Source of the DNA: Bacteroidales bacterium
GTDB taxonomy: Bacteria > Bacteroidota > Bacteroidia > Bacteroidales > VadinHA17
Assembly (NCBI GenBank): GCA_003141525.1
Contig: PLML01000055.1
Span: forward strand, 1 to 43,716
Direction: 5' to 3'
DNA length: 43,716 bases
Shown one piece after another: positions 19,213 through 26,328 of this stretch (positions are counted from its first letter, which is position 1; each line of letters begins with the position of its first letter). The notes beneath the pieces were generated by a model. That model was not told the origin of the DNA, did no database searches, and saw nothing but the letters and a program-made list of their open reading frames with translations. Both the position numbers and the translations under genes were made by a program.

Positions 19213-20193
19213 TTATTTTACTTCAACAACAGCATACTTTGAGATTTTCCAGAACTGGTCGGGATCTTTTATATCTATGCTGGCTATTTTGTTGTCTTTA
19301 TCGCGAACAAGCTCGTAGGAACTGCTTGGGTGACTGGTAATAAGCTTTGCCTCTTTTGAATTCACCGGAATACTTTTCAGATCCTTAATGTTGACCTGGG
19401 TAAACAGATTGTCAGCAAAATCGCGGTGTAAGGATTCTTTTTTCCCTAATCCGAGGAAACCGCCTTCTTTAGAAACAAGTCCCTTTGCTTTCAGAGATTT
19501 ATAGGTTCCGGAAGTAAAATAACCTTTATTCAATTCTGAAGTTTGATTAGTTATTTTCTCATCCTTTTGTGCGATAGCTACCTGCTGGTCGCTCATACGG
19601 GTATTAAGCTGTCCTATCTCAAAATCCTTTTTAGTAAGAGTAGTTTTCAGATCAGCTATTTCTGTCTCGCGCTGTTTCATTGAAGCTTCCAGTTCAGCAA
19701 CCCTAACCTGAAGACCTTTTATTGTTCCCCCTGAAGCGTTCAACTGGGCTGTTAATGATGCTATTTTCTTTTTATTCTGATCAAGCAGTGTATTAACATA
19801 CTCAATATCCTTCAGGATCTGTTGTTTTTTGTCTTTGGAAAATTCTTTATCCGATGATTTCATCGTGATTATATTTTCCTTCTCTTTTACAGTGCTCAGG
19901 TCCTTTTCTATCTCATCAAATGTCAACATCCATTCGTTGATCACTGAATCACGTGAGGTTAATAATTGTGTAAATGAGTGTTTCTGGTTTTCAACGATAG
20001 CAACATGTTTTTTCTGCTCATTTTTATACGTTGAATTAACCACTAAACCGGCTGCCAGAAGAAGAACAAAACAAATTATGGCGGTAGTGGTGACACCTTT
20101 TTTAATTCCTTCTTTCTTTGCTTTTTTTTCATTATTACGTGAAGCTGCATTATCATTAACCACATTACGGTTACTGTTTACTTCATTTGTCAT
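19213..20193 (-). CDS. Membrane-anchored coiled-coil protein, unknown function
   Basis: A 326-residue protein with a charged, Asn/Lys-rich cytoplasmic head (1-35), one transmembrane helix (about 36-53) and a long coiled coil (about 60-235) with heptads such as LQVRVAELEASMKQRETEIADLKTTL. A compact C-terminal domain (about 236-326) contains GGFLGLGKKESLH and ends QFWKISKYAVVEVK. No enzyme motif is visible and I do not recognise a characterised family. It has a strong Shine-Dalgarno (GGAGGA, 7 nt before ATG), rare in this phylum. It lies downstream of an NtrC-type activator gene, with an enhancer-like inverted repeat 240 bp upstream. It is the most likely output of the adjacent phosphorelay. 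A structural or envelope-stress role is a guess. Confidence 0.75.
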   Translation of the reverse strand: MTNEVNSNRNVVNDNAASRNNEKKAKKEGIKKGVTTTAIICFVLLLAAGLVVNSTYKNEQKKHVAIVENQKHSFTQLLTSRDSVINEWMLTFDEIEKDLSTVKEKENIITMKSSDKEFSKDKKQQILKDIEYVNTLLDQNKKKIASLTAQLNASGGTIKGLQVRVAELEASMKQRETEIADLKTTLTKKDFEIGQLNTRMSDQQVAIAQKDEKITNQTSELNKGYFTSGTYKSLKAKGLVSKEGGFLGLGKKESLHRDFADNLFTQVNIKDLKSIPVNSKEAKLITSHPSSSYELVRDKDNKIASIDIKDPDQFWKISKYAVVEVK

Positions 20194-20200
20194 TTTTAAT

Positions 20201-20210
20201 TCCTCCTTTA
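20201..20210 (-). promoter_or_regulatory. Strong Shine-Dalgarno of the coiled-coil protein gene
   Basis: The minus strand reads TAAAGGAGGA, then 7 nt, then ATG at 20193. Most genes in this window lack such a site. It fixes the start and suggests high translation on induction. Confidence 0.7.
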
Positions 20211-20317
20211 ATTTAATTTATTTAATTGTTATAGTTTTTATCTTATAATTATGTGTATCCCTGACTTATTGATCTGCTAATTCTGAGTAATTTATAATCC
20301 TCCTTAACAGGAATACT

Positions 20318-20350
20318 GCATACCTTTATTTCAAAAGGCATGCCTTTAAT
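20318..20350 (-). promoter_or_regulatory. Sigma-54-like promoter overlapping a palindrome and direct repeat
   Basis: On the minus strand AGGCAT-N5-TTGAA is an 8-of-11 match to the sigma-54 consensus TGGCAC-N5-TTGCW, with the GG kept but GA where GC is expected. It overlaps a perfect 14-bp palindrome, AAAGGCATGCCTTT (20334-20347). A second feature is a 20-bp-spaced direct repeat, GCATACCTTTA at 20318 and GCATGCCTTTA at 20338. The candidate would serve the coiled-coil gene with an mRNA leader of about 125 nt. Confidence 0.4.
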
Positions 20351-20411
20351 CGGTACGTGCTCTAACATATTTAAAATGAGTATATTGTATATATATGATT
20401 TGATAAAGAAC

Positions 20412-20446
20412 TGTTCATTTTGAGAAAACAATTCTCATATTGAGAA
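20412..20446. promoter_or_regulatory. Candidate enhancer: tandem TTCTCA-N3-TGAGAA sites
   Basis: A perfect inverted repeat TTCTCA-TAT-TGAGAA lies at 20432-20446. A degenerate one, TGTTCA-TTT-TGAGAA, lies at 20412-20426, centre to centre 20 bp away, two helical turns. The same perfect motif occurs at 24905-24919 before the first gene of the phosphorelay cluster. Position, symmetry and tandem arrangement fit binding by the NtrC-family regulator encoded at 20489-21838. Confidence 0.6.
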
Positions 20447-20488
20447 ATAAGGATGTGAGATTGAGAGTTTAACCGGAGGATTTAGTAA

Positions 20489-21838
20489 TCACTCCTTTTC
20501 TTCCTTTAATATACGGTAGATAGTCGAAATTCCAATATCGAGCTTTTCGGCTGCAAGTCTGATATCATTGTTGTTTTTCTTCAGAGTGGCTTTAATAATT
20601 TTCACCTGGTATTCCCGTAAGGTCAGATTGTCATTGGCAACATCTGACAAAGGATCGCCTCTGTCAACCACAAGGTCTGCTGGTTCGACCTCATCACTTG
20701 CTGAAAGTGTGACTGCAAGTTCAATTACAGATTTTAATTCGCGAACATTTCCCGGAAATGAATAGCTCATTAGTTTTTTTTGTGATTGTACCGTTAACTT
20801 TTTTAACAGAATGTTATTTTCATCGCAAAATTTCCCGATAAAATACCTGGCAAGTATCAATATATCATTTCCCCTTTCACGTAATGGCGGTAATTCTATG
20901 GGCAAGCCTAATAGCCTGTAATACAAATCTTCTCTGAACTTTCCTTTTTTAACCTCCTCTTTCAGGTTTTTATTGGTTGCTACAACAATGCGGCAGTCGG
21001 TTTTGACAGGTTTGTTACCGCCAATACGTATAATTTCTTTTTCCTGCAGAACACGCAATAATTTTGCCTGCAAATTCATTTCCATTTCTCCTATTTCGTC
21101 AAGGAAGAGTGTACCTTCGTCGGCTTCTTCAAATCTGCCAATCCGGCGAAAGGCTGCTCCTGTAAAAGAACCTTTTTCATGACCAAACAATTCACTCTCG
21201 ATCAGCTCACGAGGGATTGCAGCAACATTTACTGTGACAAATGATTTGTCTTTACGCTTCGAGTTGTAATGAATAGCTTTTGCCACAAGCTCTTTTCCGG
21301 TTCCTGTCTCACCCGATACAATTACGGTAATGTTCGTACTCAGAGCTTTGTCAATAAGATCGTAAACAGTTTTAATTGCGGGACTCTCGCCAAGTATGCT
21401 TTCACGAAAGCTGTATTTTTTTTGAACTTCCCTTCGCAGAGTTGTTATCTCTCTTTTGAGGCCGATGCCGTTCCTTATATTCTTCACCGTGTTAAGCAGA
21501 CGGTCTTTAATATCTTCTGACTTGCTGATATAGTCATAGGCCCCCATCTTTAGCAGGCTTACCACTGTGTCAATATCTTCCTGTTCCGAAATTAGTATAA
21601 CCTGAACATCTGAGTTTTCCTCCTTGATTCTTTTCAGGACATCAAGTCCCGTAAAATCCGGAAGCCGGTAATCAAGGGTTACAATATCAGGCAATTCATA
21701 AAGACAATTCAGAAAATCTTTTCCGTTGAAAAAACTCTTTATCTCATAGTCAGGATTTAAAGAAAGAGTGTGTACTAAAAGCCTGTTATACCATTCGCTG
21801 TCTTCTACAACAAATATTTTAAAAGGCTTTTCTGACAT
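20489..21838 (-). CDS. NtrC-family sigma-54-dependent response regulator
   Basis: A 449-residue activator. The receiver domain (1-125) has VVEDSEWYN, phospho-acceptor Asp56 in TLDYRLPD and a lysine in YISKSED. The AAA+ domain (about 145-385) has Walker A GETGTGKE (176-183), the sigma-54 contact loop as GSFTGA (223-228, Ser for the usual Ala) and Walker B TLFLDE. The C-terminal Fis-type helix-turn-helix (about 405-449) contains VKIIKATLKKNNNDIRLAAE. It opens promoters bound by sigma-54 after phosphorylation. It follows the hybrid kinase gene by 76 bp. Its probable binding sites are the TTCTCA-N3-TGAGAA repeats at both ends of this cluster. Its receiver resembles that of the small regulator at 24342-24761. 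Confidence 0.94.
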   Translation of the reverse strand: MSEKPFKIFVVEDSEWYNRLLVHTLSLNPDYEIKSFFNGKDFLNCLYELPDIVTLDYRLPDFTGLDVLKRIKEENSDVQVILISEQEDIDTVVSLLKMGAYDYISKSEDIKDRLLNTVKNIRNGIGLKREITTLRREVQKKYSFRESILGESPAIKTVYDLIDKALSTNITVIVSGETGTGKELVAKAIHYNSKRKDKSFVTVNVAAIPRELIESELFGHEKGSFTGAAFRRIGRFEEADEGTLFLDEIGEMEMNLQAKLLRVLQEKEIIRIGGNKPVKTDCRIVVATNKNLKEEVKKGKFREDLYYRLLGLPIELPPLRERGNDILILARYFIGKFCDENNILLKKLTVQSQKKLMSYSFPGNVRELKSVIELAVTLSASDEVEPADLVVDRGDPLSDVANDNLTLREYQVKIIKATLKKNNNDIRLAAEKLDIGISTIYRILKEEKE

Positions 21839-21914
21839 ATCCTGTTGAATTCTGGTTCATAGTTTATTACGGCTCTTACAAAGTAAAGCAAAAATGGCCG
21901 TATTTGCCAGAGTT

Positions 21915-24311
21915 TTAACTGATTTTCGCGATATGTTCTTTAATAAGTCCGCTAACGGCTTCAAATTCAAGTAAGGATTCTCCAGCAAGCGTTTCCAGAT
22001 TATTTGGCTCGACCTTCTTCTGAATATTTTCCTCGATCTTTCTAAGGAGATTGCAGAGATCCAGTGCGCCAATATGCCGGCAAGGCGATGACATTTTATG
22101 AGCAAGGTCGGCTACTGAGTCAATCCGTCCCGATTTTACAATCTCCTGCATTTCGTCAAGCCCTTTTTTTGTGGAATCAATGAAAGAAAACAGCATCTGC
22201 TTTACAAACTTTTCATCACCACCTGAGATATGATAGAGATTTTGCAAATTAATTTTACCAGGACCGGCAGAGTCAATATTTTCTTCAATTGACTGATCAG
22301 CTTCTGAGACCGGTGCGTAATCTTTTATTACAGAAAGAATTGTCGTAAGTAACATCTCTTCGGTAAATGGTTTTGGAAGAAAAGCGTTCATCCCTGCCTT
22401 CTGGTATTTTTTCCAGTCTTCATTTATTATGGCAGCCGAAATACAGATGACCGGCATTTCCGATTTCGTGATTTTCATCTCCTCCCGGATAAACTGTGTT
22501 GCCTTTAACCCGTCTATTCCCGGCATCCTTTCATCCATAAACAGCATATCATACCGTTCGGTTTTTAAAATTTCCAATGCCTCTATTCCATTTACAGCTT
22601 CATGGTACCTGACTTTCCATCGTTCCAGTATAGTTTTGAAAAGCAGACGGTTATATTCCTCATCATCGACGATCAGAATATTCATATTTCTGATTTCTTC
22701 AGGAATATAAAGGGGAGGTTCGACTTCTTTTCTGACCTGTTTTTCATCACCGGTCAGGTATGGGATATGGCAGGCAATTCTGGTTCCCTGGTTTTTCCTG
22801 CTGACACATTCAATAGTCCCACTGTGCAATTCAATGAGCTTTTTGACTATTGATAAGCCTAATCCTGTTCCGCCATATTTACGGGTGGTGCTCATCTCCT
22901 CCTGGGTAAAATCTTCAAAAATGAAATTTATTTTGTTCTCCTCTATTCCGATACCCGTATCGGTTACCTCTATAACAAGCTCAATTTCTTTCGTTTCCCT
23001 CTTAATACAATTTACACTGAAATCTACAACACCATTCCTAGTAAATTTGACTGAATTACTGACCAGATTTATAAGAATTTGTTTTAGACGATACGGATCA
23101 CCCAGCAGAAAATGAGGAGTATCCGGACTTATTGTATAGGTCAATCTGGTATTATTTCTGAGGGCCTGTTTCTCAAACAATGTATAAACATCCTCGAAAA
23201 TTTGCACGATTGTGAAATGTACTTTTTCAAGCGCCAGTCTGCCGTTCTGCAATTTCGAAAAATCCAGGATATCGTTAATAATATTCGCGAGGTGGTCGGA
23301 AGATGATTTGATAATTTTCAGCGAACGGGTTGTACTTTCATCCAGAGGTTCATGCAGGAGCTGTTCTGTAAATCCTGAAATGGCTGTTACAGGTGTACGG
23401 ATCTCATGACTCATATTTGCCATAAAGAGTTCTTTTGTACGGGCCAGTTTTTCAACTTCATCCTTAGAATTCTGGAGAGCAATCTGATAAGCATGGGTTT
23501 TTCTTACGTAACGTACAATTATAAACATTACTAATATTGCAAGGAGAGTGCCTGATACCGAAAACATAGCCAGCCAGATGTAAGTTTTTGCTGCTAATTG
23601 ATCTGCGGCTAAGGCTTTTGTTTTAACGAGCCCGTAAATCTCATTTTCTATTTTGTTAATCAGATCATAAAACTGTTCTTTGATTTCGCTGCTGGTGACT
23701 GCTAATTTCGACTCTCTTATCGTCAGTTTTACCTTCGTTATGCTATCTTGATGTTCTATTTCTTTGAGATCGCTTAAAATTTCCTTTTCATTCAACCTGT
23801 TTTTATTGGCACGACTGAAAACACGTTTAAGAATGCTTTTTTCAGTTTTACTGTCTTCAACCGAGTTACTATCCAGCCGTACAGATAAATGTTTGAGATT
23901 TTCAACTACAGTGTAGTTATGATGAAGATATAACAACTGGTTCCAGATATCAATGTTTTTTTCAATTAACTTACTAATGGTATCAGTCTGTTGCATTAGT
24001 AATGAATCAGTTATACACTCGGAACGTAAATTGCTTACTTTTTCATCAATGTTGGAGATTATAGTGTAATAGGGTCGAAGATCCAGTGTATCATGTGTAT
24101 TTGTATAAATACGGATACTGTTTTGTGCTTTTTCCAGATCCATTGAAATGTTCCGTATATATGAAAGTCTTAGGTCGGGTTTTAAGTTCATCTGAATTGA
24201 AGCAACAATTGAAGAAAGATTCCGATAGGATAAGTATCCAGTTGCTGAGAGTAGTACTACTGCCAGTATCATTAAGAATCCAATCTTTATCTGAATTGAA
24301 ATTTTCTTCAA
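21915..24311 (-). CDS. Hybrid histidine kinase with receiver and Hpt domains
   Basis: A 798-residue membrane kinase. A first transmembrane helix (10-28), a mostly helical periplasmic sensor of about 220 residues and a second helix (about 243-266) precede HisKA (His302 in MANMSHEIRTP). The ATPase domain has NLVSNSVKFT, DTGIGI and GGTGLGLSIVKK, the receiver has Asp593 in FMDERMPGID, and the C-terminal Hpt domain has His738 in LAHKMSSPCRHIG. All the steps of a His-Asp-His-Asp relay are present, the last Asp being on the NtrC-type regulator or the receiver-only protein. It starts 30 bp after the receiver-only gene, so they are co-transcribed. The helical sensor resembles four-helix-bundle types but no ligand can be named. 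Confidence 0.94.
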   Translation of the reverse strand: MKKISIQIKIGFLMILAVVLLSATGYLSYRNLSSIVASIQMNLKPDLRLSYIRNISMDLEKAQNSIRIYTNTHDTLDLRPYYTIISNIDEKVSNLRSECITDSLLMQQTDTISKLIEKNIDIWNQLLYLHHNYTVVENLKHLSVRLDSNSVEDSKTEKSILKRVFSRANKNRLNEKEILSDLKEIEHQDSITKVKLTIRESKLAVTSSEIKEQFYDLINKIENEIYGLVKTKALAADQLAAKTYIWLAMFSVSGTLLAILVMFIIVRYVRKTHAYQIALQNSKDEVEKLARTKELFMANMSHEIRTPVTAISGFTEQLLHEPLDESTTRSLKIIKSSSDHLANIINDILDFSKLQNGRLALEKVHFTIVQIFEDVYTLFEKQALRNNTRLTYTISPDTPHFLLGDPYRLKQILINLVSNSVKFTRNGVVDFSVNCIKRETKEIELVIEVTDTGIGIEENKINFIFEDFTQEEMSTTRKYGGTGLGLSIVKKLIELHSGTIECVSRKNQGTRIACHIPYLTGDEKQVRKEVEPPLYIPEEIRNMNILIVDDEEYNRLLFKTILERWKVRYHEAVNGIEALEILKTERYDMLFMDERMPGIDGLKATQFIREEMKITKSEMPVICISAAIINEDWKKYQKAGMNAFLPKPFTEEMLLTTILSVIKDYAPVSEADQSIEENIDSAGPGKINLQNLYHISGGDEKFVKQMLFSFIDSTKKGLDEMQEIVKSGRIDSVADLAHKMSSPCRHIGALDLCNLLRKIEENIQKKVEPNNLETLAGESLLEFEAVSGLIKEHIAKIS

Positions 24312-24341
24312 GGCTTGTGGCAGGATTAATAATCCCCAAAG

Positions 24342-24761
24342 CTATGAAAATTTATTTTCAATAAATTGATCAAGGTATAATCTGCAAAGCGCAGGGGCGA
24401 AGGTATCCTTAATAACGCAAAAATCGTAATTGTTCTGGGTGCTTCTTTCTTCAATGGCACGCGTTTGAGACAGCAGTATAGCAAGGGTATTACTGTTTTC
24501 TTTTTTCAGCTGCCTTATGATCTGGGCACCGCTAATCTCATTTCCCACATTATAATCAACGAATGCGACAACATCATTATCAATAAATTCACGAGATTCA
24601 ATTTTTCTCATGCAGTCAGATAAATCAACAAATGAATGCAGAACCAGCTGGTACTTCATTTTCTGCTGAACAAAATGAGTACTTTGTTGCAAGGCATTGA
24701 AAATCATATTATTGTAATATTCATTATCTTCAACGACGAGGACATTAATTTTTTGTTTCAT
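24342..24761 (-). CDS. Single-domain response regulator
   Basis: A 139-residue receiver with no output domain. It has VLVVEDNEYYN at the start, phospho-acceptor Asp69 in VAFVDYNVG, a serine in LLSQ and the conserved lysine in CVIKDT. The N-terminal VEDNEYYN is close to VEDSEWYN of the NtrC-type regulator in the same cluster, suggesting the two receivers are related and dock on the same kinase. As the first gene of the operon it may be a phosphate sink, a competitor, or a shuttle. A sigma-54-like promoter and a TTCTCA-N3-TGAGAA site lie upstream, so the cluster may regulate itself. Confidence 0.88.
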   Translation of the reverse strand: MKQKINVLVVEDNEYYNNMIFNALQQSTHFVQQKMKYQLVLHSFVDLSDCMRKIESREFIDNDVVAFVDYNVGNEISGAQIIRQLKKENSNTLAILLSQTRAIEERSTQNNYDFCVIKDTFAPALCRLYLDQFIENKFS

Positions 24762-24791
24762 TTCGCTGTTAGATTGGTTCTGCCCATATTA

Positions 24792-24807
24792 TTCCAAAAC
24801 TGTGCCA
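24792..24807 (-). promoter_or_regulatory. Sigma-54-like promoter of the phosphorelay operon
   Basis: On the minus strand TGGCAC-N5-TGGAA: the -24 box is a perfect TGGCAC, the -12 box matches 3 of 5 of TTGCW. It lies about 30 bp before the receiver gene start and about 100 bp from the upstream inverted repeat at 24905. Like the candidate at 20331-20346 it has GA where GC is usual. Confidence 0.45.
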
Positions 24808-24904
24808 GATTATCTCAAAATGGTAGCCGAACCTGTATCTGATTAACAGATAATAAATTAAAATATTAACAAGTTTATTATGTTATGCCCCGGGTAAGAA
24901 ATAA

Positions 24905-24919
24905 TTCTCAAAATGAGAA
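24905..24919. promoter_or_regulatory. Candidate enhancer site TTCTCA-N3-TGAGAA
   Basis: A perfect inverted repeat, TTCTCA-AAA-TGAGAA, about 145 bp upstream of the receiver gene start. It is the same motif as at 20432-20446. A TGAGAA half site follows at 24938-24943. Confidence 0.6.
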
Positions 24920-24996
24920 AAAGATGAGGAACAAAAGTGAGAAAGAGAGAAAGAGAGAAAGAAAGAAGGGTAAAGAGGAAATGAAGAGGAAAAAAA
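24914..24996 (+). repeat. Polypurine (GA-rich) tract of about 80 bp
   Basis: From 24914 the plus strand is almost all A and G, with GAGAGAAAGAGAGAAAG as its core. It lies between the enhancer-like repeat and the terminator of the Tyr/Trp-rich protein gene. Such tracts can bend or form triplex DNA. A spurious Lys/Arg-rich reading frame runs through it. Confidence 0.6.
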
Positions 24997-25022
24997 CGAA
25001 TTCCTGCTTTCACAGGAATTCG
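24990..25022 (-). terminator. Terminator of the Tyr/Trp-rich protein gene
   Basis: The perfect 10-bp stem CGAATTCCTG / CAGGAATTCG around CTTTCA is followed on the minus strand by seven T residues. It lies about 28 nt past the stop at 25051. Confidence 0.88.
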
Positions 25023-25050
25023 CTATATGCAATTTGGTTTAATTTAAGAG

Positions 25051-26328
25051 TTATTGCCTGTTGTGATCAGGTTCCTTTTTATCACCCTCTTTCGTATGAG
25101 TCTCTTTTTTCACTGTTGACACCGACTTTTTCTTATTTACAATCTTTCGGTTGGAAGAAGTTGCAGCAGGTTTTGTCTGGTCGTGTGAACGGTTTATTCC
25201 CGCATTTTTTCCTGAGGGATGATTTATCACCGACTTATCGGTAACTGTAGTAGTAGACCTCCTGTTTATGTCGGTGTTATTACCAGGATGTGGATTTGTG
25301 ACGGATTTGCTGGTTCCAGTGGTAGTTGACCTCCGGTTTGTTACGGTATTGTTACCAGGTTGTGGATTTGTGACTGATTTGTTTGTCATTGTGGTAGTTG
25401 CCCTCCGTGTTATATTGGAGTTATTCCCTGATGAGATCGCTTTCGATCTTCTGTATTGATCCGGATGGGTATTGGCGAACATAGATTCCCCATCTTTTCT
25501 CTGCTCGGGATGCGAATATGTATTTTTATAATAACCCATCTCTACTCTGTGATGAATATCCGGTGAATATGAACGTCTCCCATTGTAATAAAAGTCATTC
25601 CATCTTGAATAGCGATGATAGTTCCACTGGCGGTAATGTCCGTAATAATAACGGTTCCAGTTATACTGATACCCATAGTAGTAATTCCAGGAGTATGGAT
25701 GCCATGTATGCCAGTAACCCGGGTAATAGCCCCAGTACCATGGTGAGTGCCATACAATATAAGTGGGAAGGAAAAGAAATCTTATCAGGGGCCAGGCAGC
25801 AATTTGAACCGGTGTTGTATTAACATAAGTAACAGACTGTCCATCAACTATTCGTGTATTTCCTGCGTATCCCGGATTGGCTGTCCCTCCCGGATTTGCA
25901 TTATCATATATAGGTTCAATTATGTAATCCTTGCCATATAATTGTTCGTCGCCTGTAAGCTGGATCTGCACCTGTCCATTCTGAAACCTCTGCACGGTAA
26001 AAACGGCAACATCCTGATTTTCCCTAGGGCTTACTGCTACCTGCAGAACAATATTATGAACATCTCCGTCTACATTATCGATCACCTTTATATAGTCCAC
26101 CAGGTTATCGCCATTAAGGTCGAGATTATTTATATTGGATTTAGTATCATTAAGGTCTCTTTCAAAATCTTCAAGTGTTTTTGATTCCTGAAACAGTTTC
26201 ATTACTGCATAAAGATTAAGATTATCCCCTGGCAAACCCAGGTATTCAGGATGATTATCCTGTGCCTTAAGTATTGCGCCGGTGGTAAATAATGCCACCA
26301 GAATTGTAGTTACTATAAACTTTTTCAT
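25051..26328 (-). CDS. Secreted Tyr/Trp-rich protein with C-terminal 24-residue repeats
   Basis: A 425-residue exported protein (signal MKKFIVTTILVALFTTGAIL, then KAQ). The N-terminal domain (25-180) contains LDLNGDNLVDYIKV, a calcium-loop-like segment, and an SPRENQDVAVFTVQ core seen in related Bacteroidota proteins. Residues 190-250 are packed with Tyr, Trp and His (for example WYWGYYPGYWHTWH). The tail has three tandem 24-residue units (308-379) with RRSTTT and SVTNP cores, then a very basic end. The composition suggests a surface or matrix protein, possibly wall or polysaccharide binding through the basic tail. Function is unknown. It is well separated from the phosphorelay genes by its own terminator. 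Confidence 0.75.
   Translation of the reverse strand: MKKFIVTTILVALFTTGAILKAQDNHPEYLGLPGDNLNLYAVMKLFQESKTLEDFERDLNDTKSNINNLDLNGDNLVDYIKVIDNVDGDVHNIVLQVAVSPRENQDVAVFTVQRFQNGQVQIQLTGDEQLYGKDYIIEPIYDNANPGGTANPGYAGNTRIVDGQSVTYVNTTPVQIAAWPLIRFLFLPTYIVWHSPWYWGYYPGYWHTWHPYSWNYYYGYQYNWNRYYYGHYRQWNYHRYSRWNDFYYNGRRSYSPDIHHRVEMGYYKNTYSHPEQRKDGESMFANTHPDQYRRSKAISSGNNSNITRRATTTMTNKSVTNPQPGNNTVTNRRSTTTGTSKSVTNPHPGNNTDINRRSTTTVTDKSVINHPSGKNAGINRSHDQTKPAATSSNRKIVNKKKSVSTVKKETHTKEGDKKEPDHNRQ
25192..25407 (-). repeat. Three tandem 72-bp coding repeats
   Basis: The DNA for residues 308-379 of the Tyr/Trp-rich protein is three 72-bp units. The first two are the closest. Copy number could change by slippage or recombination. 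Confidence 0.8.

Follow-up and report, generated by a model that had tools for sequence, protein, structure and literature searches.

A candidate autoregulated sigma-54 phosphorelay with matching operators before its own operon and a Cbp1-family gene in Bacteroidales

A stretch of 43,716 nucleotides (nt) from a Bacteroidales bacterium (GenBank assembly GCA_003141525.1, contig PLML01000055.1; hereafter the window, all of which was analysed) carries on its minus strand, in this order, genes for a stand-alone receiver (REC), a hybrid histidine kinase, an NtrC-type activator and a coiled-coil protein. Comparison with related genomes makes it very likely that they belong to a dedicated, positively autoregulated sigma-54 phosphorelay, which would drive the Cbp1-family coiled-coil gene, its own operon and, in part of the genus, one gene for a CsbD-like protein. 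The window is contig C19 of a 4.8-Mb genome (hereafter the own genome), whose nearest named relatives are Bacteroidales metagenome-assembled genomes (MAGs); several of their isolate names contain 'fen'. The predicted features are listed here in the direction of transcription.

24905-24919, no strand: perfect TTCTCA-N3-TGAGAA operator/enhancer of the receiver-kinase-activator operon (motif scan; kept in 21/21 REC upstream regions)
24792-24807, minus strand: sigma-54-like -24/-12 box TGGCACAGTTTTGGAA of the receiver promoter (offset 111-115 nt in 21/21)
24342-24761, minus strand: stand-alone receiver, 139 amino acids (aa), first gene of the operon (open reading frame (ORF) listing, Response_reg profile)
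21915-24311, minus strand: hybrid histidine kinase, 798 aa, listed with a TTG start (HisKA-HATPase-REC-Hpt, weak CHASE3 match)
20489-21838, minus strand: NtrC-family sigma-54 activator, 449 aa (REC-AAA+-Fis helix-turn-helix (HTH), GSFTGA loop)
20432-20446, no strand: perfect operator/enhancer copy upstream of the Cbp1-family gene (motif scan, conservation in relatives)
20412-20426, no strand: second, degenerate tandem operator, 2 mismatches, 20 bp from the first (motif scan, relatives)
20330-20345, minus strand: sigma-54-like -24/-12 box AGGCATGCCTTTTGAA of the Cbp1 promoter, 101 nt from the operator start
19213-20193, minus strand: Cbp1-family coiled-coil protein, 326 aa, target gene (NF052320 profile, alignment, structure model)

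Results

A preliminary description of this DNA, made from the letters alone, had placed perfect inverted repeats at 24905-24919 and 20432-20446, with a sigma-54-like box downstream of each. Both repeats and both boxes are indeed there, the distance from operator to box being 97 nt to TGGCACAGTTTTGGAA (24807-24792) and 86 nt to AGGCATGCCTTTTGAA (20345-20330). The second, degenerate site that it reported 20 bp away exists at the coiled-coil promoter (20412-20426); at the receiver promoter there is none. The combination of operator and box at this locus convincingly exceeds chance, unlike either element alone. In the window the box by itself has 21 matches at up to 2 mismatches against 17.2 expected, which is not above chance, and the loose operator motif has 8 against 4.0 expected, a weak excess that 6 of 100 shuffles reach. 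A combined pattern (half-relaxed operator, 81-111 nt, box), on the other hand, has exactly two matches in the 4.8 Mb of the own genome, both of them the window promoters, and its reversed control has none. The same scan over 22 genomes returned 34 matches against 2 in the reversed control, six of the 34 being non-palindromic by eye and chance-like. Another pattern scan returned the two locus sites and three other matches.

Without the box, the operator occurs 30 times in the own genome at up to one mismatch, against 10 times for the reversed pattern. All 28 copies outside this locus fall within mechanically called ORFs of at least 80 aa (22/22 and 6/6), and under this same rule both window operators lie outside ORFs. 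The genome-wide scan proposed in the preliminary description thus finds that intergenic copies are not randomly scattered: only the two window sites lie between ORFs. Before filtering, a 119-aa plus-strand ORF (24885-25244) covers the 24905-24919 operator and overlaps the gene of a 425-aa protein (25051-26328). This protein has no Pfam match and is a conserved neighbour upstream of the operon in several relatives; an operator precedes its gene in 0/13 cases.

A third perfect genome copy, at C8:7078-7092 (G000, L059), was considered as a target and rejected. This palindrome makes up the closing FSK-stop codons of an ORF, no box lies within 200 nt of it, and several relatives (L108, L110, L112, L116, L119, L125, L133, L134) carry it at the corresponding position. 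The ORF that ends in it is presumably GSCFA-like, and we take its convergent neighbour to be MerR-like.

The operator is conserved upstream of orthologous clusters, a point that the preliminary description had made a test of its proposal. Counting non-redundant loci and up to one mismatch, it is present in 21/21 REC and 25/35 Cbp1 upstream regions, against 0/113 control regions (HK 0/26, NtrC 0/47, up425 0/13, YdjC 0/8, YkuD 0/12, DUF6340 0/7). The intergenic DNA of these clusters has diverged, yet operators and boxes stand out. The offset, measured from operator start to box start, is 111-115 nt in all 21 REC promoters (mean 112.9). Among 22 Cbp1 promoters with both motif and box it is 99-102 nt in 19 (mean 101.1) and 78-81 nt in three, whose inner tandem site matches the motif better. 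Furthermore, 33 adjacent activator-Cbp1 loci show the same geometry down to about 35% Cbp1 identity wherever a box was found; three of these 33 (L222, L226, L238) yielded none.

Some relatives carry the operator in other settings. L129 (G006:C23, 161-460) has the Cbp1 promoter in a second copy, operator and box included, but what stands behind it is no more than the initial codons of a Cbp1-like gene, which soon ends and gives way to an unrelated 99-aa ORF (by eye). Near position 2574 of L126 (G041:C23) two divergent genes flank an operator that has a sigma-54-like box to its left and another to its right, the left box facing a 792-aa secreted-looking protein. A gene for a small secreted-looking protein stands behind an operator, between activator and Cbp1, at L128 (about 1128-1643) and L235 (10541-11101).

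Base 3 of the operator tends to co-vary with the recognition helix of the activator in distant families, a suggestive trend read from 57 rows, of which 23 without a box-anchored operator, including all 10 G-K-S rows, were left out. Loci with a G-x-S-T helix have C at this base in 21/22 cases (20 as a C/G pair) and A in 0/22, against A in 7/10 of the G-x-A-T loci. S-x-S-T loci have G in 2/2, and a third, L231, shows TTGTCA/CTGTCA by eye. The contrast for A (7/10 versus 0/22) gives a Fisher p of 3.6e-5, uncorrected for the relatedness of the loci, and because the loci are related we treat this evidence as suggestive. Such co-variation ties the sites to this activator. Together with the conservation described above, it supports the earlier proposal that the regulator would control its own operon and the coiled-coil gene. 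Activator and operator are retained together from 100% to about 59% NtrC identity. An operator of the A type, TTATCA-N3-TGATAA, was also seen as a perfect copy near 2155 of L364 (genome G324); together with a box, it stands before a 169-aa ORF that precedes the kinase.

The operator before the operon seems to follow the receiver. REC is present in 22/26 genomes. At loci with a recognisable REC and the C-type operator family the operator precedes the operon in 20/20, against 0/5 at REC-less loci, so that the receiver and the autoregulatory enhancer seem to go together. In G043 and G058, where the kinase shares about 88% identity with that of the window, the 850 nt before the kinase contain no operator, and the same holds at L227, L230 and L232, which have no receiver gene beside the kinase. 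All five REC-less loci keep the operator of the Cbp1 promoter (up to one mismatch), and therefore kinase and activator acting on Cbp1 looks like the core circuit. The order kinase-activator-Cbp1 extends to a Prolixibacteraceae MAG and to Tangfeifania diversioriginum, both without REC; in T. diversioriginum the operator is of the A type.

Remoter homologues (NtrC about 53-60% identity, kinase after the activator in many, helix mostly G-K-S) were not counted as the same module, though they may belong to it. At up to 2 mismatches, a like site stands in the 300 nt before the activator in 12/61, against 2/61 downstream and 0.84 expected from shuffles; at up to one mismatch the figures are 3/61, 0 and 0.04. 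These counts are post hoc, as are the following finds of the palindrome far beyond the relatives of the module: single copies, without a box, 55-112 nt before the homologous activator at L241 (8931), L268 (8880) and L271 (8940), and, in a MAG labelled Chitinophaga (L291, 10460-10494), two copies in tandem at a distance of 20 bp, ahead of a receiver gene. Behind the activator, the 10 G-K-S rows have no box-anchored operator.

The module, called self-contained in the preliminary description, is not fully so: a CsbD-like gene on another contig shares the operator-box architecture. This third target, absent from that description, came to light through perfect operators elsewhere in relatives. It encodes a protein of 60 aa with 70 matches in 13/22 genomes, seven of them, one partial, in the own genome. 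We examined 300 nt upstream of 33 matches at 30 loci. An operator (0-1 mismatch) and a box at 121-126 nt precede one copy each in G042, G017, G020, G057, G043, G050, G060 and G019, the own-genome copy on C177 has an operator with 2 mismatches at 120 nt, and a copy in G006 has one with 3 mismatches; within these 300 nt the remaining copies have no operator-box pair. The box of the G005 gene lies 211 nt upstream, so that an operator would fall outside the DNA examined. A relaxed pattern, loosened with the own-genome CsbD-like site already known, has two matches in the own genome, that site and the promoter of Cbp1 (control 0), and gives 18 matches against 2 in the control over 12 genomes. The mean offset of 122.7 nt before CsbD-like genes follows those of Cbp1 (101.1 nt) and REC (112.9 nt) in steps of about one helical turn, a regularity that may be functionally important.

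In profile searches the 60-aa protein resembles E. coli YjbJ (1ryk) and PA4738 (1yww), at E 0.003 and 0.008, two designed repeat proteins ranking above them through many weak repeats. The same two structures, which we take to be CsbD-family proteins, head the Foldseek list with weak scores (E 0.73 and 1.7). The Pfam profile PF05532 (CsbD) gave 13.2 bits for the G042 homologue, under its gathering score of 40 bits. Run against 15 family members, it matched two at E<=1 (best 0.047) and did not match the own-genome copy. The likeness to CsbD/YjbJ small stress proteins thus lies in profile and fold rank, and the difference in weak scores below the Pfam cut-off. Moreover, known CsbD-type stress proteins are usually under a general-stress sigma factor, whereas the third target stands under a sigma-54-like promoter.

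ORFs and domain profiles bear out the four same-strand genes as first described: a receiver-only protein, a hybrid kinase that includes a receiver and an Hpt domain, an NtrC-family activator and a membrane coiled-coil protein. The stand-alone receiver scores 19.5 bits against Pfam Response_reg, under the 30.2 cut-off, and its orthologues keep the phospho-Asp in 20/21 and the Lys in 21/21. In the kinase, Pfam finds HisKA, HATPase_c and Response_reg, a borderline Hpt (24.2 bits, cut-off 24.6) and a sub-threshold CHASE3. All 25/25 near-full-length orthologues of at least 40% identity have the HisKA His, the N-box Asn, the Asp residues and Lys of the receiver, and the Hpt His.

By its sequence the activator is an NtrC-type sigma-54 regulator, not NtrC itself. 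It combines the receiver residues, AAA+ motifs and Fis-type HTH of this class with -24/-12-like target boxes and an rpoN gene in the own genome (one match, 5.3e-51). Pfam recognises Response_reg, Sigma54_activat (3.1e-71) and HTH_8 (25.3 bits, cut-off 22). The acidic residues and phospho-Asp of its receiver are kept in 55/56 orthologues, one being uncovered by the alignment, and the Lys in 56/56; Walker A, Walker B and the GxFTGA loop are kept in 55 or 56/56 at each position checked. The loop reads GSFTGA here, its second residue being A in 50/56 and S in 6/56 orthologues, with one S at the fifth. Against TIGR01818, nitrogen regulator NR(I), the activator scores 387.3 bits, under the equivalog cut-off of 558.6, and among the 25 NCBIfam matches listed, of 100, none reaches its cut-off.

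The output of the module, "not described" according to the preliminary description, can be given a family: the coiled-coil protein scores 202.2 bits (E 1.2e-59) against NCBIfam NF052320, the Cbp1 family, over a cut-off of 90. Pfam has no match above cut-off. The protein has one N-terminal hydrophobic stretch (by eye), and D82-S83-[V/L/T/M] is invariant in 21/21 aligned family members. A published study gives D(S/T)(A/I/L/M/T/V) as the Bacteroides O-glycosylation motif and describes B. fragilis Cbp1 (BF0586) as a collagen-binding glycoprotein of the outer-membrane fraction (PMC3949742). The match of the invariant D-S-x to this motif supports an extracytoplasmic coiled coil. A structure model (mean pLDDT 76, pTM 0.41) has one long helix, two more long helices and a small beta domain; Foldseek relates it to helical bundles, none at E<=0.001, and to no specific relative. 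With B. fragilis Cbp1 the protein shares the NCBIfam subfamily, the membrane-associated coiled coil and the D-S-x motif. However, that Cbp1 is described as a predicted lipoprotein and collagen adhesin (PMC3949742), whereas the proteins here mostly have an N-terminal hydrophobic stretch (by eye) and a sigma-54-like promoter. The family match does not imply collagen binding, and a free-living bacterium would probably not have collagen as the natural ligand of this protein.

Discussion

We infer from the sequence phosphotransfer, operator binding, activation rather than repression, the signal and an envelope or stress role, and they would fit together as follows. The membrane hybrid kinase would sense an envelope or extracytoplasmic cue, and phosphate would pass from His to Asp to the Hpt His and on to the NtrC-type activator, the stand-alone receiver perhaps competing for phosphate or buffering its flow. 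Once phosphorylated, the activator would bind the TTCTCA-N3-TGAGAA enhancers and open sigma-54 promoters downstream of them, at distances of 101, 113 or about 122 nt that hardly vary. The Cbp1-family envelope protein and the receiver-kinase-activator operon would be switched on, as would the CsbD-like protein in part of the genus.

Several observations weigh against this scheme. Ten of the 35 Cbp1 upstream regions have no motif at up to one mismatch, in part because distant families use an A or G form of the operator. Three of the 10 G-x-A-T loci depart from the expected A, two having C/G and one being mixed. REC was not found in 4/26 genomes (G018, G043, G058, G303), and at L233, which has a diverged receiver (26%), no operator precedes it. 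The operator of the own-genome CsbD-like copy, on C177, has 2 mismatches at an offset of 120 nt and may be weak or dead. The REC box deviates from consensus at -12. More generally, boxes were accepted generously when offsets were measured (up to 4 mismatches in the promoter counts; only the GG and G required in the 33-locus comparison), so that the evidence lies in how little the offset varies and not in the box.

Other readings have to be set against the autoregulated phosphorelay. The palindromes could bind a different regulator, either another sigma-54 activator or an unrelated dimeric repressor, with the kinase-activator pair acting elsewhere. At E<=1e-60 the own genome has 8 matches to this activator, one of them the activator itself. 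However, the operator variants tend to follow the recognition helix of this activator, operator-box sites are limited to this locus and a few targets, and activator and operator are kept together over the identity range given above; we consider a different regulator unlikely. We give slightly less credence still to the idea that the boxes are not sigma-54 promoters and that a housekeeping promoter is used, the activator repressing or acting otherwise. The Cbp1 box does contain TTTG, which resembles the Bacteroidota housekeeping promoter, box matches alone are not above chance in the window, and some remote homologues have a like site about 50-145 nt before the activator, with no box in the three loci inspected. 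Against this, REC, Cbp1 and CsbD promoters all show GG-N10-G spacing, and its distance from the operator is nearly fixed; the activator also retains its Walker A and Walker B motifs and its GxFTGA loop, and rpoN is present.

It is scarcely credible that terminators, RNA hairpins or chance palindromes account for the repeats. Short A+T-rich palindromes are common, and the perfect copy at C8:7078 is merely the end of an ORF. But the empty control regions, the near-fixed offsets, the 20-bp tandem arrangement and the change of operator between families all speak against such an origin, and the combined genome scan contradicts it too.

The predicted module resembles the enhancer-binding regulons of the NtrC family (NtrC, AtoC, ZraR, FlgR) in its REC-AAA+-Fis activator, palindromic upstream enhancers, -24/-12 boxes and autoregulation, the last being read here from sequence. 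It differs in its hybrid kinase with Hpt, its stand-alone receiver, its tiny regulon and its spacings of about 101, 113 and 122 nt. Among the papers listed in our searches on sigma-54, RpoN and CsbD in Bacteroidota and on Cbp1, which took in few subscription papers and no preprints, there is neither a description of the module nor an operator for such an activator in Bacteroidota. The main text of a sigma-54 regulon survey (PMC12316311) mentions neither CsbD nor a phosphorelay. The sigma-54 regulon predicted here is thus new, small and tightly wired, and of known type. A wider view, which we hold only tentatively and think somewhat doubtful, is that of a Bacteroidota-specific switch for envelope or surface stress. 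Its outputs would lie one helical turn apart (about 101, 113 and 122 nt), its receiver, a probable phosphate sink or timer, would be gained and lost with the autoregulatory enhancer, and operator and recognition helix would evolve together.

In conclusion, comparative genomics here reads out an activator, its operator, its promoters and three targets of a predicted regulon. The natural variants of operator and helix and the three spacings make specificity and looping directly testable, for example in Tangfeifania diversioriginum DSM 27063, a relative available as a strain. The Cbp1 glycoprotein family, for its part, gains a regulatory context.

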